Assembly: GCF_015775515.1 (NCBI RefSeq)
Contig: NZ_CP065383.1
Coordinates: 372,001 to 436,000 of the forward strand
Source of the DNA: Atribacter laminatus
Lineage (GTDB): Bacteria; Atribacterota; Atribacteria; Atribacterales; Atribacteraceae
Direction: 5' to 3'
Length of the DNA: 64,000 nt
Part shown: positions 50,522 to 56,572 of the stretch, one piece after another
How the letters are laid out: each line of letters starts with the position of its first letter
Position numbering within the stretch: position 1 is the first letter of the stretch
Translations under genes and position numbers: made by a program
Notes under the pieces: model-generated
The model's database searches: none
The model's input: the letters and a program-made list of their open reading frames with translations, nothing else
Told to the model about the DNA's origin: nothing

Positions 50522-52034
50522 TTAAACGTCCCCCTCCTATTGCTAGTTTTAAAACTTCTTCTTGGTTCGCATTTTGGCGGGTTAAGGTTCCGGTAATCTT
50601 TCCTTCTTTCATAACCAATATATGATCGCTCATCCCTAATATTTCCGGTAATTCTGAAGAAACCATCAAGATTGCAGCCCCTCGTTCTATAAGTTTGTTC
50701 ATTAAGTGATATATTTCAATCTTTGCTCCCACATCAATTCCCCGAGTTGGTTCATCAAAGAGGTAAATATCGCACTCTCGAGCAAACCATTTCCCCAACA
50801 CCACTTTTTGTTGATTCCCCCCGGAAAGAAACATGGTTTTCTGATGAAAGAAAGGAGTTTTAATATTCATCATTTGAACCATTTCAGAAGTGATATGATT
50901 GAGTTTCGTATCATCAATAAAACCACGATTGGATATCTTGGTTAAGGAAGGTAGCCCAATATTGTCCGTGACCGATAATAACAATACCAAACCTTGGGTT
51001 TTTCTTTCTTCAGGGAGAAGCGCAATGCCCAAATTAATGGCATCATGCGGAGATTGAATGGTAACTTTATTCCCTTTCACAAAAATCTTTCCGCCATCTA
51101 AAGGATCTAAACCATATATAGCCCGTAAGAGTTCAGTTCGACCTGAACCAACCATTCCGGCAATTCCTACGATTTGTCCCTTTTTAAGGGAAAAATTAAT
51201 ATTGTGCAGCACTCCCTTCCGGTTTAAATTTTCTACTCTTAAAACCTCATCTTCAACTTTATGATCCAGATGAGGAAATTGCTCAACTAATTTCCGCCCA
51301 ACCATCATTTTTATCAAATCATCAATCGTTAACGTAGCTGTATTGCTGGTTGCAACATGCTTCCCATCTCTTAACACTGTCACTCGATCGGATATAGCAA
51401 ATATTTCGTCGAGATGGTGTGAAATATAAATTATGGTTACTCCCTTTGATTTCAGGAACTGGATAATTCGGAATAGTGTTTCAATCTCTTTTTTTGCTAA
51501 CGCTGCCGTAGGTTCATCCATTATTAATATTTGTGCATTGAGTGAAAGTGCTTTTGCAATCTCAACCACCTGCTTTTTTGCAACTCCCAAAGTTCCAACC
51601 TTCGCATCAATATCTACATCCACTTCCAGAAAATCTATGAGCTTCTGAGCTTCCTCTTTCATCTTTTTCCAATCAATAAATCCTCGCTGGTTGCGAATGT
51701 GGTGACCCATAAAGATGTTTTCAGCTACTGTTAAAGCAGGTATTAAATTCAGTTCTTGATAGATGGCAGCTATTCCGCTCCGTAAAGCTTCATGTGGGTT
51801 TTGATAATGAATTGATTGACCTTGAAAAAATACAGCTCCCGAAGTTTTTTGATATACACCGGTGACAATTTTAATTAAGGTCGATTTTCCAGCTCCATTC
51901 TCACCTACCAAAGCATGGACCTCTCCCCTTAAAACATCAAAACTGACATTATCTAAAGCTAACACACCCGGAAAACGTTTAGTTACCTTATCAAATCGTA
52001 AAATCCAATCCTCATCCTTAATGGGATTATTCAT
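50505..52034 (-). CDS. Sugar ABC transporter double ATP-binding protein (RbsA type)
   Basis: A 509-residue ATPase with two ABC domains. The first has GENGAGKSTLIKIVTGVYQK near residue 40 and ILIMDEPTAALAKKEI near 172. The second carries a degenerate Walker A (GMVGSGRTELLRAIYG near 293) and the LSGGNQQKVVLGKWFA signature near 405, as normal for this class. The ATG at 52034 is favoured over a TTG three bases earlier since GGAGAGG sits upstream. It is first in the operon and has an operator at its promoter. Confidence 0.94.
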   Translation of the reverse strand: MNNPIKDEDWILRFDKVTKRFPGVLALDNVSFDVLRGEVHALVGENGAGKSTLIKIVTGVYQKTSGAVFFQGQSIHYQNPHEALRSGIAAIYQELNLIPALTVAENIFMGHHIRNQRGFIDWKKMKEEAQKLIDFLEVDVDIDAKVGTLGVAKKQVVEIAKALSLNAQILIMDEPTAALAKKEIETLFRIIQFLKSKGVTIIYISHHLDEIFAISDRVTVLRDGKHVATSNTATLTIDDLIKMMVGRKLVEQFPHLDHKVEDEVLRVENLNRKGVLHNINFSLKKGQIVGIAGMVGSGRTELLRAIYGLDPLDGGKIFVKGNKVTIQSPHDAINLGIALLPEERKTQGLVLLLSVTDNIGLPSLTKISNRGFIDDTKLNHITSEMVQMMNIKTPFFHQKTMFLSGGNQQKVVLGKWFARECDIYLFDEPTRGIDVGAKIEIYHLMNKLIERGAAILMVSSELPEILGMSDHILVMKEGKITGTLTRQNANQEEVLKLAIGGGRLNGRSD

Positions 52035-52067
52035 CAATCCTCTCCAATTTGTTTAACCTTTGGATAT

Positions 52068-52092
52068 TTGAAATCGTTTTCAAGGTATTATA
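52068..52092 (-). promoter_or_regulatory. LacI-type operator and -10 box of the sugar ABC operon
   Basis: TTGAAATCGTTTTCAA (52068-52083) is a near-perfect CG-centred palindrome of the LacI operator form. On the minus strand TATAAT (52092-52087) lies three bases upstream of it, so the operator covers the expected start site. The -35 box is weak. Confidence 0.75.
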
Positions 52093-52208
52093 AAAAACAC
52101 TTTCACTACTATTCTATATTCTCTTATTATTTTTATCAATTTAATTTGACTTTTCTTTTCAGCTAAAAAATATCTAATTTCTCAAATTTTTATCATCTTT
52201 TTCTATCC

Positions 52209-52237
52209 TTGACAAGGCTTATGAAATACGCTATTTT
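52209..52237 (+). promoter_or_regulatory. Promoter for the tRNA-Leu/tRNA-Val pair
   Basis: TTGACA (52209-52214) and TATTTT (52232-52237) are separated by 17 bp and lie just upstream of tRNA-Leu at 52252. Expected start is within a few bases of the tRNA 5' end. Confidence 0.65.
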
Positions 52238-52251
52238 ATATTTTGCCCTTC

Positions 52252-52340
52252 GCCGAAGTGGCGGAACTTGGCAGACGCGCTGGATTCAGGTTCCAGTGAG
52301 TTTAACGCTCGTGGGGGTTCAAATCCCCCCTTCGGCACCA
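52252..52340 (+). tRNA. tRNA-Leu (anticodon CAG)
   Basis: Acceptor GCCGAAG pairs with CTTCGGC, followed by ACCA encoded in the DNA. The anticodon arm CTGGA/TCCAG surrounds TTCAGGT, giving CAG. A long variable arm (AGTTTAACGCTCGT region) fits a class II tRNA-Leu. TTCAAAT is the T-loop. Confidence 0.96.
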
Positions 52341-52343
52341 GAT

Positions 52344-52418
52344 GCGCGATTAACTCAGCGGTAGAGTGCCATCCTCACACGGTGGAAGTCGCTGGTTCGA
52401 ACCCAGCATCGCGCACCA
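52344..52418 (+). tRNA. tRNA-Val (anticodon CAC)
   Basis: Acceptor GCGCGAT pairs with ATCGCGC, then ACCA. Anticodon stem CCATC/GGTGG encloses CTCACAC, so the anticodon is CAC. T-loop is TTCGAAC. It follows tRNA-Leu by three bases, so both come from one transcript. Confidence 0.96.
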
Positions 52419-52746
52419 CCATTTTTTGTTTAATCGCAACCAGAACTATCAAAATAGTTATAATAAGGTGTTACTCTGAGTAATCCTTTTCCATCGAGGC
52501 AAGAATGGTGATTTCAGAAGGTGAAAAATTTGCTGAAATATTCGGTCAATAAAAGAGTGAATACCTTTCTGTGCTTTCTTAGACAAAATGCAACACCAAA
52601 TGAAAGTGTTGTAATAATAAAAAATACGCCAATTTTTAACCTCCTTTTTTAATATCAATCCAATTGCACCAATAATTTTTAATAAAATTCCATCACTTTC
52701 AATTGAATCAATATCAATTTAATTTCGGTTCTGGATTGGAGCTCTC
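52419..52746. other. Intergenic region with possible small-gene remnant
   Basis: No confident gene is seen in this 328-bp gap. On the minus strand AAAAGGAGG at about 52641-52648 precedes a 40-codon frame (52633-52514) reading IGVFFIITTLSFGVAF and FTLLLTEYFSKFFTF, a membrane-helix-like sequence, but it lacks a standard start codon (ATT), while TTG in the next frame gives only a short peptide. It could be a decayed or error-containing small membrane gene. Confidence 0.25.
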
Positions 52747-53112
52747 ATGAAAAAGAAAAGCGAATTGGAAAGTCAAATTAGTTCGACTCTCATCCAGTTT
52801 GAAAAAGAATACATGGGAAGAGGGCCAGTCGATATAAAGACTTACCTTTTTGATGATATTGTTTTTATACGATTGAAAGGCGTCCTCACCAAAGCAGAAA
52901 CGCAATTAGCCTCAGGGGGGAGTAAGGATAACCGCGATTTAATAAAGCGGGTCCGTATTGAGCTTTTAGAAAAAGGAAGACCGCTTTTGGAAGCAATAAT
53001 TGAAAATATTCTTAATCGAAAAGTAGTGAGCTTGCACACTGATATCAGTACTCGTACTGGTGAGCGGTTGATAATCTTTACTTTAAATGAACCACTGAAT
53101 GACCTGGTCTAA
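52747..53112 (+). CDS. DUF2294 (MpsC-like) family protein
   Basis: A 121-residue protein with the DUF2294 pattern: QISSTLIQFEKEYMGRGPVD at the N-terminus, then FIRLKGVLTKAETQLASG and RPLLEAIIENILNRKVVSLH, closing with DISTRTGERLIIFTLNEPL. Related domains occur in the MpsABC sodium/bicarbonate system in Staphylococcus and in many stand-alone proteins of unknown role. No MpsA/B partner is nearby. The ATG has GGAGCTCTC upstream. Confidence 0.85.
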   Translation: MKKKSELESQISSTLIQFEKEYMGRGPVDIKTYLFDDIVFIRLKGVLTKAETQLASGGSKDNRDLIKRVRIELLEKGRPLLEAIIENILNRKVVSLHTDISTRTGERLIIFTLNEPLNDLV

Positions 53113-53248
53113 AGTTTGCTTAATGAGAATATAAGTCTCTTTGAAAAAAAACACCACATCATGAATCTAATTTCTTGCATATTCAACTCTTCCCTTTTTT
53201 AAAGAAAATGAAAAAATGACTTTATTTCACTAATTTTTTCCATAAACA

Positions 53249-53277
53249 TTGACAGCGGATATCATAATGAGTAGAAT
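53249..53277 (+). promoter_or_regulatory. Strong promoter for the leader RNA and PEPCK/HprK-like gene
   Basis: TTGACA (53249-53254), 17-bp spacer and TAGAAT (53272-53277) nearly match consensus. The predicted start is near 53284, about 148 nt before the ATG at 53432. Confidence 0.75.
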
Positions 53278-53283
53278 AACCAC

Positions 53284-53410
53284 TTAAATCGGTGGAGCAC
53301 TAAGGGTATTGGTGTTTCGCACATAAAGAAAGATACAGTCGGAAGCCAAAGAGTATTAATGACGATTTGGAGAGGGCTGGGGTTATAATCTAACTCCAGC
53401 CCTTTTTTAT
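53284..53410 (+). ncRNA. Candidate structured leader RNA ending in an intrinsic terminator
   Basis: The transcript from the strong promoter would begin near 53284. AAATCG (53286-53291, extended to 7 bp by flanking bases) can pair with CGATTT (53363-53368) to close a domain of about 70 nt. Inside, GTAT/ATAC and GTG/CAC short helices are possible. Then comes a terminator: GGGCTGGGGTTA and TAACTCCAGCCC (53374-53402, 12 bp with one G-U), followed by TTTTTT. This is the layout of a riboswitch or attenuator, or of a short independent RNA. It matches no class I can name. Confidence 0.5.
53374..53408 (+). terminator. Intrinsic terminator upstream of the PEPCK/HprK-like gene
   Basis: A 12-bp stem (GGGCTGGGGTTA with TAACTCCAGCCC, 5-nt loop) is followed by six T. 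It lies 24 bp before the gene start, between promoter and coding sequence, so it should cause premature ending unless regulated. Confidence 0.88.
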
Positions 53411-53431
53411 TTTAGAAAGAAGGAGAAAAAA

Positions 53432-55201
53432 ATGAAAAGCTTTACTTTAAGGAATAAAGAAGTGATCATTCATACTGAAGGAGAAATTTGTGGTAACATC
53501 CAAGAATTAACCAATAGCCCCATTTTCGAAAGAATGGTTTACGCCTTCATGGATCATATCAAAAAGCACAGTTCTTTGTTAAGCGATTCTTTATTTCCTC
53601 CAGATGTTGAGCTTTCCTATCGTTCAAAAATAGTTTCTCTACTGCGAATTTTAACCACATCATCTCTTGAAGAAGTTGTTAAAATCTTACCTGATTATGG
53701 TTTCTTTTTAGATAAAAAAAATTTACTTCATGAATTTGTGGAAAAGCTCTATAACTTCTGGCGTCGATATGAAAGGTATATGATTTGTCATTCCGAGTCT
53801 GGAATCTATTCTCATGATCAAAAACCTTATCGAACTTTTAACATGACGGTTGAGCGTCTTTCCCACTTAGTTCGAGCAGGATATCGCGATATATGCGAAA
53901 ATATCACTGGTACTCATCCTCGAGTTTATCGTCAAGTCGATGCCGGTTGCCAAGCGGGAATTATTGCGGTCCCAAAAAAATGGAATCTTCCTTCGGAAGA
54001 ATACGCTAAACTCCTTTCCATCCCCTTTATCCGACAATTGATGATACAACCGCCTCTCATTCTCGATCCTCCAATGAATAAACGAACTGGACATTTCCAT
54101 AAAATTCCTCAAAACGTATTATCCAGCCTTGTGATCGAGGGGAAAAAATGGCTTTGTTATCCAGCCCAGGTTGGGAAATTAGTCATCTTCATCTATTTTG
54201 AAGAATGTTTTATGGGATTAGGTTGTTCTCTGGCCAATCTTTTTGAGTTGGCTGATGATGATCAAATCAGCAAAGGACCGGATGCTATTTACCTTTATGG
54301 GATTAATCCCACAACGTTTCCTTCCAATCTCAATTCTGAAACTGTCTTTTTTGATGATGAATCGAATAAAATTCTGATCGGTTTCGTTCCTGGAAAAGAG
54401 CAATATGGGTACTTCGGCTATCTTAAAAAGATGGTGCTCACGCTCCACAATATTGTCATGATGAAAAAAGGAATCCTGCCTTTCCATGGCGCAGCTTTTC
54501 GTATCACCAATTTGGATAAATCAGTTTCGACTATTGCCATTATTGGAGACACGGCTGCAGGGAAATCGGAAACTCTGGAAGCTCTTCGTATTATGGGAAA
54601 TGGATATATTGCTGACCTAAAAATTATTGCCGATGATATGGGCTCTTTTGAGATTGATGAAAACAACCATCAAATTCTCTGTTTTGGTACCGAGATTGGT
54701 GCCTTTGTTCGACTTGATGATTTAGAAAAAGGCTATGCCTTTGAACAAATTGACCGAGCTATTATCATGAGTCCTCAAAAAATGAATGCCCGAGTTATTT
54801 TACCAGTAACAACCGTAGATTGTATCTTAAAGGGATCCCCAATTGATTATATTTTCTATGCAAATAACTATGAAGAAATTGATGAGTTACATCCAGTTAT
54901 TGAACGGTTTCCGACCGTTGAAAAAGCTTTGGAAGTATTCCGGGAAGGAAAAGCTATGTCAAAAGGAACCACCACGTCGGTAGGTATTGTGAATTCCTAT
55001 TTCGCAAACATTTTTGGGCCTATTCAGTATCTCGATCTCCATGAAAAAATTGCCCATCGCTATTTCTCAAAATTTTTTAAAACTAATATCTTTGTCGGTC
55101 AAATTCGTACTCGTTTAGGTATCTGCGGTCAAGAAATGAATGGACCGCAAACTGCCGCTGCTGCTCTTATGGAGTTAGTTGGTCTAAAAAGAACCAAATA
55201 A
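53432..55201 (+). CDS. PEPCK/HPr-kinase-like P-loop protein, substrate unknown
   Basis: A 589-residue protein. Residues about 310-410 carry YFGYLKKMVLTLHNIVMMKK, GILPFHGAAFRI, a P-loop IIGDTAAGKSETLEAL near residue 372 and KIIADDMGSFEI near 400. The layout before the P-loop resembles PEP carboxykinase (ATP), while GKSET and ADD are closer to HPr kinase/phosphorylase, both of the same P-loop fold group. The N-terminal 300 residues show no domain I recognise, and typical PEPCK substrate motifs are not evident. It may be a divergent carboxykinase or a kinase. AGAAGGAGAAAAAA precedes the ATG, and a terminator-bearing leader precedes that. Confidence 0.65.
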   Translation: MKSFTLRNKEVIIHTEGEICGNIQELTNSPIFERMVYAFMDHIKKHSSLLSDSLFPPDVELSYRSKIVSLLRILTTSSLEEVVKILPDYGFFLDKKNLLHEFVEKLYNFWRRYERYMICHSESGIYSHDQKPYRTFNMTVERLSHLVRAGYRDICENITGTHPRVYRQVDAGCQAGIIAVPKKWNLPSEEYAKLLSIPFIRQLMIQPPLILDPPMNKRTGHFHKIPQNVLSSLVIEGKKWLCYPAQVGKLVIFIYFEECFMGLGCSLANLFELADDDQISKGPDAIYLYGINPTTFPSNLNSETVFFDDESNKILIGFVPGKEQYGYFGYLKKMVLTLHNIVMMKKGILPFHGAAFRITNLDKSVSTIAIIGDTAAGKSETLEALRIMGNGYIADLKIIADDMGSFEIDENNHQILCFGTEIGAFVRLDDLEKGYAFEQIDRAIIMSPQKMNARVILPVTTVDCILKGSPIDYIFYANNYEEIDELHPVIERFPTVEKALEVFREGKAMSKGTTTSVGIVNSYFANIFGPIQYLDLHEKIAHRYFSKFFKTNIFVGQIRTRLGICGQEMNGPQTAAAALMELVGLKRTK

Positions 55202-55212
55202 ATCAAAAGAGA

Positions 55213-55473
55213 TTATTCGGTTTTGATATACAAAAATTCAAAAACATAGAGTGGAATTTTTTTGGGATTAGTGGTTTGAGCAGTCGGATTAAAGCGTGCA
55301 ATCGGCCGAGGTTTATCGGTTTTGTTTAAGAATTGCAAGCGTTCAGCTAATGATTCTTTAAGAAGGACTTTTATTTCTTCTATGGTTTTTGACCGAACCT
55401 CTAAATCAACTATATCAGGGAAACAGGCGTAAAATTCCTTTTCTCTTTTTTCTACCACTGCCCAATATCCCAT
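55213..55473 (-). CDS. HicB-like antitoxin-domain protein
   Basis: An 86-residue protein with the partial RNase H-like HicB pattern: WAVVEKREKEFYACFPDIVD, then SKTIEEIKVLLKESLAERLQ. There is no adjacent HicA mRNA interferase, and no C-terminal DNA-binding domain is apparent, so it may be an orphan antitoxin or a repurposed domain. AAGGGAGGGGATG precedes the ATG. It is convergent with the PEPCK/HprK-like gene (11-bp gap). Confidence 0.65.
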   Translation of the reverse strand: MGYWAVVEKREKEFYACFPDIVDLEVRSKTIEEIKVLLKESLAERLQFLNKTDKPRPIARFNPTAQTTNPKKIPLYVFEFLYIKTE

Positions 55474-55503
55474 TTTTCATCCCCTCCCTTCAATTAAAAT
55501 ATT

Positions 55504-55537
55504 AACATCAACCAGTGGATTCCCCCTGGTTGATGTT
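55504..55537. repeat. 12-bp inverted repeat upstream of the HicB-like gene
   Basis: AACATCAACCAG and CTGGTTGATGTT are perfect inverted copies with a 10-nt spacer, 31 bp upstream of the HicB-like start. No U-run follows. It may be an operator for the HicB-like protein or a transcription-ending stem. Confidence 0.6.
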
Positions 55538-55711
55538 TGATCTCTTAAAGAGAAATCTATGGTTACTTTCATTATACAAAAATTTAATCTTTATGGCGAA
55601 ACCATTTCAATTATTGTTATCAATAAATAACTTTTACTCCAAATCTTTTTATCTTTAATGGTACAATATTGAAAAAGTATCCTTGGCTTGGTTAAAGGAG
55701 GTTGCCTATCA

Positions 55712-56572
55712 ATGTTCAAATTTGGAGTTGATACCTTTATTTGGAGTGAAGCTTTCTCAGAAAAAGATCTATGGGTCATTCCGAAAGCGAAAGAACTTGG
55801 TTTTGAAGTATTAGATATTTCCATCAGTAAACCAGATAGTTTCCCCACCCAACTGGTCAAAGAAAAGATTCAAGAAACCGGTCTCGAAGTGGTTACCACC
55901 ACCACTCTGGGTAAAGAAACCAACCTGATCTCATCTGATCCGGCCATTCGAAAAAACGGCATTGAATTCATGAAGAAGATGGTTGATATCAATGTTGAGC
56001 TGGGGTCTCGAATCATCGGTGGCGTAAGCTATGCTGCCTGGGGATACCTGAGTGGGAAACCCCGAACCCAACAAGAATGGGACTGGTCGATTGCCAGCAT
56101 GAAAGAGATTGCTCAGTATGCTCAGGAGAAGAGCCAAATCGCCGTCTGTGTTGAACCGGTGAATCGCTTTGAAACCCATTTCTTAAACATTGCCGATGAT
56201 GCAGTTCGCTATTGTCAGGAAGTTGGCTATGAGAATATCAAAGTCCATCTCGACTCCTTCCACATGATTCGGGAAGAAACCAGCTTTCGGGAAGCAGTGA
56301 AAACCTGTGGGAAGAAATATTTGGGCTATGTCCATGTCTGTGAAAACAACCGAGGAATTCCCGGAACCGGTCTAGTCCCCTGGAAAGAATTCTTTCTTGC
56401 TCTCAAGGATATCAACTACACTGGCCCGTTAGTCATCGAATCTTTTGATCCCAGTTTTGAAGAGCTCAACCGTCAATGTGCCATCTGGAGAAAATTGGCT
56501 GATTCTGGAGAAGAATTAGCGGTTCAAGGGTTGAAGCATCTCAGAGCAGTCGCCAAGGAGATTGGAGAGTAA
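55712..56572 (+). CDS. Sugar phosphate isomerase/epimerase (psicose/tagatose 3-epimerase type)
   Basis: A 286-residue TIM-barrel enzyme of the xylose-isomerase-like family. Metal-binding residues fit in VCVEPVNRFETHFLN near residue 150, VHLDSFHMIREE near 183, YVHVCENNRGIPGTG near 206 and LVIESFDPSFEE near 243, matching ketose 3-epimerases. I start at 55712 (MFKFGVD) behind AAAGGAGG rather than the longer frame from 55688. The sequence is noticeably more GC-rich than its neighbours, with codon choice biased toward C-ending forms. Its sugar is unknown. Confidence 0.87.
   Translation: MFKFGVDTFIWSEAFSEKDLWVIPKAKELGFEVLDISISKPDSFPTQLVKEKIQETGLEVVTTTTLGKETNLISSDPAIRKNGIEFMKKMVDINVELGSRIIGGVSYAAWGYLSGKPRTQQEWDWSIASMKEIAQYAQEKSQIAVCVEPVNRFETHFLNIADDAVRYCQEVGYENIKVHLDSFHMIREETSFREAVKTCGKKYLGYVHVCENNRGIPGTGLVPWKEFFLALKDINYTGPLVIESFDPSFEELNRQCAIWRKLADSGEELAVQGLKHLRAVAKEIGE

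Follow-up and report, generated by a model that had tools for sequence, protein, structure and literature searches.

The window analysed here (a stretch of 64,000 nt, to which all coordinates refer) contains a gene for a 589-aa protein preceded by a promoter, a structured leader and an intrinsic terminator. An MpsC (PF10057) gene lies upstream, at 52747-53112, and an MpsC gene also adjoins the homologue of the 589-aa protein gene in G008, a representative of another genus of the same family. The leader has counterparts in two congeners, G003 and G005, and the following features were assigned:

53249..53277, + strand: sigma-70-type promoter, TTGACA (53249-53254), 17 nt, TAGAAT (53272-53277), assigned from sequence
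53286..53291, + strand: P1 5' strand AAATCG, assigned from sequence, invariant in the three species
53292..53320, + strand: P2 hairpin (53292-53303 / 53309-53320), from folds and cross-species pair changes
53336..53340, + strand: putative antiterminator strand CAGTC (CAGCC in G003 and G005), pairs with GGCTG at 53375-53379
53346..53350, + strand: putative antiterminator strand CCAAA, pairs with TTTGG at 53366-53370, invariant in the three species
53363..53368, + strand: P1 3' strand CGATTT, assigned from sequence
53363..53370, + strand: switching strand CGATTTGG, in which CGATTT pairs with P1 and TTTGG with CCAAA
53374..53408, + strand: intrinsic terminator, 12-bp stem, 5-nt loop and six T, kept in G003 and G005
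53420..53425, + strand: Shine-Dalgarno sequence AAGGAG, assigned from sequence
53432..55201, + strand: gene for the 589-aa protein, a distant PEPCK-fold protein with the P-loop GDTAAGKSET, from NCBIfam and an AlphaFold model

The promoter matches 11 of the 12 consensus bases and ranks first among the 20 promoter-like sites in a scan of positions 52000-56000. The pattern TTGACA-N16-18-TANAAT occurs once in the window, at this promoter, against an expectation of 0.29, and at least once in 23 of 100 shuffles of the same 64 kb; taken alone, the match seems only mildly above chance, such matches being not rare. It is the conservation of promoter, leader and terminator in two other species that places the whole element above chance. 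We infer a transcription start at 53284-53286, so that the 5' strand of P1 would roughly coincide with the 5' end of the transcript. The terminator arms (53374-53385 / 53391-53402) make a 12-bp stem that includes one G-T pair and closes the loop TAATC, followed by six T at 53403-53408; a terminator scan that allows for the A/T extension counts 17 pairs. The promoter, the closing helix AAATCG/CGATTT and the 12-bp stem described in an earlier, sequence-only reading of this DNA are all present, as is the short distance between the terminator and the ATG, although this amounts to 23 nt (53409-53431) rather than the 24 bp given there. A perfect TATAAT at 53384-53389 overlaps the terminator loop and might be a second -10 element that escapes the terminator; its -35 element matches at only 4 of 6 positions, at a spacing of 19 nt, and the hexamer is not in place in G005.

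The downstream gene was called PEPCK/HprK-like in the same reading, and its predicted fold is indeed that of PEPCK. The NCBIfam PEPCK match of the protein (E 3e-5) is under the family cut-off, and a Pfam search gave no match, nor did a search by sequence for solved structures. The AlphaFold model, built from 30 relatives, has a pLDDT of 84, and its best fold matches in the PDB are ATP-dependent PEPCKs (E 1.9e-14, 16% identity, range about 14-18%). The product is, on this model, a distant PEPCK-fold protein and a putative enzyme of an uncharacterised family. The gene evolves under strong purifying selection (dN 0.053, dS 0.68 between the window and G005; dS is 0.17 between the window and G003). 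Homologues outside the phylum were fetched at 49 loci (Omnitrophota, Spirochaetes and others). As a whole, the family has a patchy distribution, with members in Omnitrophota, Neomarinimicrobiota, Spirochaetes, Bacteroidales, archaea and others, most of them 46-54% identical, and no gene neighbours are constant across the fetched loci, which gives no clue to function; the combination of scattered taxa and inconstant neighbourhoods suggests horizontal spread. The viral contigs searched contain neither a PEPCK-like relative nor a match to the leader pattern.

The RNA between promoter and terminator is predicted to fold at -46.3 kcal/mol, compared with -26.4 (sd 3.35) for shuffles (z = -5.95); without the terminator z is -2.57, i.e., the terminator supplies most of the excess stability. 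Fold prediction indicates that P2 is formed in all three leaders and that each of them can also form an antiterminator, CAGYC:GGCUG together with CCAAA:UUUGG, which traps the 5' arm of the terminator, GGCTG (53375-53379) being part of that arm. Given that CGATTTGG is common to P1 and the antiterminator, these two structures are mutually exclusive. Before the arm is made, the ensemble energies with P1 and with CCAAA:UUUGG are -20.5 and -20.0 kcal/mol in the window, -20.2 and -22.1 in G003, and -18.8 and -17.7 in G005, i.e., the two folds are separated by 0.5, 1.9 and 1.1 kcal/mol, respectively; in G003, P1 is minor even at this stage (probability 0.02). With the arm made, the antiterminator reaches -27.1, -28.9 and -27.6 kcal/mol versus -20.6, -20.3 and -18.8 for P1 (window, G003 and G005), so that inclusion of GGCTG makes it the best predicted fold in every one of the three species, with a margin of 6.5 to 8.8 kcal/mol. 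The terminator, when complete, exceeds the antiterminator in stability by about 8.5 to 13 kcal/mol.

In each species, leader plus arm folds better than every one of 1000 shuffled sequences. By probability, the pairing between the arm and the sequence 5' of it is only mildly unusual, 5.6%, 11% and 5.6% of shuffles doing as well in the window, G003 and G005; the energy gain from this pairing is rarer (1.1%, 4.3% and 0.4%). When P1, arm pairing and energy gain are required together, 0.1% of shuffles pass for the window, 2.3% for G003 and 0% for G005, but these measures were picked after the fold was seen and the three species are not independent. Among the three closely related sequences there is one compensatory pair, matched by 150 of 500 column shuffles, and 98.6% of cells are paired; besides this pair, all helices together contain four pairs with a one-sided compatible change and one broken cell. 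The share of P2 is one compensatory GC-to-AU pair, three one-sided compatible pairs and one broken cell. The switching strands are invariant in the three species except for one C/T, which still pairs.

Between the window and G005, the leader differs by 6 substitutions and is 93% identical, compared with 58% at fourfold sites, 67% in the upstream spacer and 65% in the stretch after the terminator; the contrast with the fourfold sites indicates that the leader is held by selection. The terminator is 85% identical between these two, with the loop shifted in G005, and is the same in G003 as in the window. This level of leader conservation, together with the strong purifying selection on the gene, makes it very improbable that the leader is a recent non-regulatory insertion with a chance terminator, tolerated because the gene is dispensable, even though the leader is limited to one genus and a deletion in G002, which has lost most of the gene, fuses the MpsC gene to its last 44 codons.

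The leader precedes the orthologous gene in G003 and G005, which are both of the other Atribacter congeners in which the region is assembled. In G004, it falls in an assembly gap, with the MpsC and PEPCK-like contigs breaking on either side; in G002, a deletion has removed the leader together with most of the gene; and in G001, an incomplete assembly, neither leader nor gene was found. In G002 (G002:C281, 1260-1640), the first ~76 MpsC codons are joined to the end of the PEPCK-like coding sequence, an arrangement expected from a single clean deletion or else from a misassembly. The PEPCK-like protein of G008 is 84% identical, and there a TTGACA-17-TAGAAT promoter (11 of 12 consensus bases) lies just 3' of the MpsC gene, followed by a short 5' UTR directly before the PEPCK-like gene, with no leader and no terminator in this upstream region. 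Because the same promoter apparently drives the gene directly in G008, it can be assigned to the gene, and the leader to the gene's own transcript as a genus-level addition to the 5' UTR. Among the homologues, the upstream regions read were those of Atribacterota. The leader is absent from order-level relatives, in which neither blastn nor a covariance model gave a convincing match, and the covariance model, R1, run against 50 genomes of the phylum, recovered the three known leaders only and no second copy. Further R1 matches, in G036, G009 and G027, score ~20 bits and look like chance; the one in G009 lies inside a recX-like ORF. A pattern with a fixed 4-nt gap matches G003 only since the gap in the window and G005 is 3 nt. 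The simplest reading of these sequences would be that leader and terminator were gained within the genus, between an old promoter and the gene.

We propose, with a probability of roughly two in three, that the leader acts in cis as a transcription attenuator within the 5' UTR of the PEPCK-like gene. Judging from the sequence, promoter, structured leader and intrinsic terminator all lie within the 5' UTR of the gene that would be regulated, and an exclusive pair of antiterminator and terminator is, by fold prediction, kept among relatives, as in an attenuator. The riboswitch or attenuator layout that the sequence-only reading had recognised is strengthened by the antiterminator in three leaders, by purifying selection and by the promoter of G008; against it stand the small number of closely related sequences (three), a compensatory pair that is not above shuffles, the only mildly unusual probability of arm pairing, the low probability of P1 in G003, and outgroups that manage without the leader. 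RNA polymerase would start near 53286, and the emerging leader would form either P1 (AAAUCG:CGAUUU, closing P2 and a conserved linker) or the antiterminator (CCAAA:UUUGG stacked on CAGYC:GGCUG), the former leaving the 5' arm of the terminator free and the latter tying it up. With no signal, transcription of the arm would presumably tip the balance to the antiterminator, and the gene would be read. Stabilisation of the P1-closed fold by a metabolite or protein would instead allow the terminator to form, yielding an RNA of ~123 nt that ends at 53408. By analogy with P1-type riboswitches, locking of this fold by a ligand would switch the gene off; that direction (signal = OFF) is a guess, as is what the signal consists of.

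The signal could be received by an aptamer for a small molecule or by a binding site for a protein, which appear about equally plausible. The former could amount to an undescribed class of small-molecule riboswitch, seen so far only in Atribacter, with a ligand from carbon metabolism and controlling a PEPCK-fold enzyme, which we put forward as a tentative idea. The leader has in common with terminating riboswitches of the purine, SAM and lysine types the 5' promoter, the P1-closed domain, the exclusive antiterminator and terminator and the short distance to the Shine-Dalgarno sequence, but differs from them in having no sequence or covariance match to Rfam riboswitches, and it is described from three sequences. 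In the literature searched, no riboswitch work on Atribacterota was found. We do not claim a 'riboswitch' in the strict sense; the leader appears to be a new sequence family that works in a known way.

The sequence-only reading had seen no likeness to known RNA families and had proposed an Rfam search as a check, with a known-family match counting against it; for the window leader with and without the terminator and for those of the two other species, no family, T-box included, scored above its gathering threshold. The best score, 28.9 bits (E 7.5e-4), was that of the L20 leader (RF00558), under its gathering score of 58.7, and is accounted for by an A/U-rich run and the terminator hairpin: the leader alone, with the terminator removed, has no RF00558 match. 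These two elements are common to the L20 leader and the present one, but the gene here is outside an infC-rpmI-rplT operon. A leader-peptide attenuator is likewise unlikely because no short ORF with a start codon and Shine-Dalgarno sequence is conserved across species; a 9-codon ATG ORF is present in the leaders of the window and G003, but its stop codon is lost in G005, and the indels are not multiples of three (2 nt between the window and G005).

An antiterminator that overlaps the terminator arm is an architecture common to riboswitches and to protein- and tRNA-dependent attenuators. The leader could thus be a PyrR-, BglG/LicT- or T-box-like attenuator instead of a metabolite riboswitch; we consider this sub-type of the attenuator reading, whose probability overlaps with it, possible though doubtful. 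The antiterminator over the terminator 5' arm is as in the PyrR, BglG/LicT RAT and TRAP systems, and a narrow distribution fits a local regulator, but the recognition sequences of these systems, including the RAT and PyrR-loop consensus, were not recognised in the leader by eye, and at E up to 10 no T-box or other attenuator model of Rfam matched, bar the sub-threshold, terminator-driven L20 leader scores.

Less likely again, and in our view rather improbable, is that the leader is an independent small RNA of ~123 nt, ended by its own terminator and placed before the gene by chance, the gene being expressed by leaky read-through or from another promoter. The terminator is very strong, the finished RNA would fold compactly into P1/P2 and the terminator, and the TATAAT in the terminator loop could serve a second promoter; nevertheless, that element has the poor -35 and the displacement in G005 noted above, in G008 this promoter serves the gene with no leader in between, and the conserved blocks are the antiterminator strands, for which a small RNA that is already complete would have no use. 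If the leader is an attenuator, its testable two-state fold provides a handle on the signal to which this PEPCK-fold enzyme, of an uncharacterised family, responds. The probable host, Atribacter laminatus RT761, has been brought into culture, and transcriptomic work on it is published (PMC7736352).

The leader of G003 (G003:C175) follows its own course: at 84% identity to that of the window, about the neutral rate, and 85% to that of G005, it is as far from the former as from the distant G005, whereas its flanking genes are near-identical to those of the window. Either local recombination or fast change restricted to the leader could account for this divergence. Its changes avoid the switching strands except for one T/C in CAGYC, where pairing is kept.

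On the 3' side of the PEPCK-like gene, a minus-strand ORF of 86 aa (55213-55473), with no Pfam match, resembles HicB-type antitoxins by eye, and related sequence is also found 3' of the PEPCK-like gene in G004 and G002.
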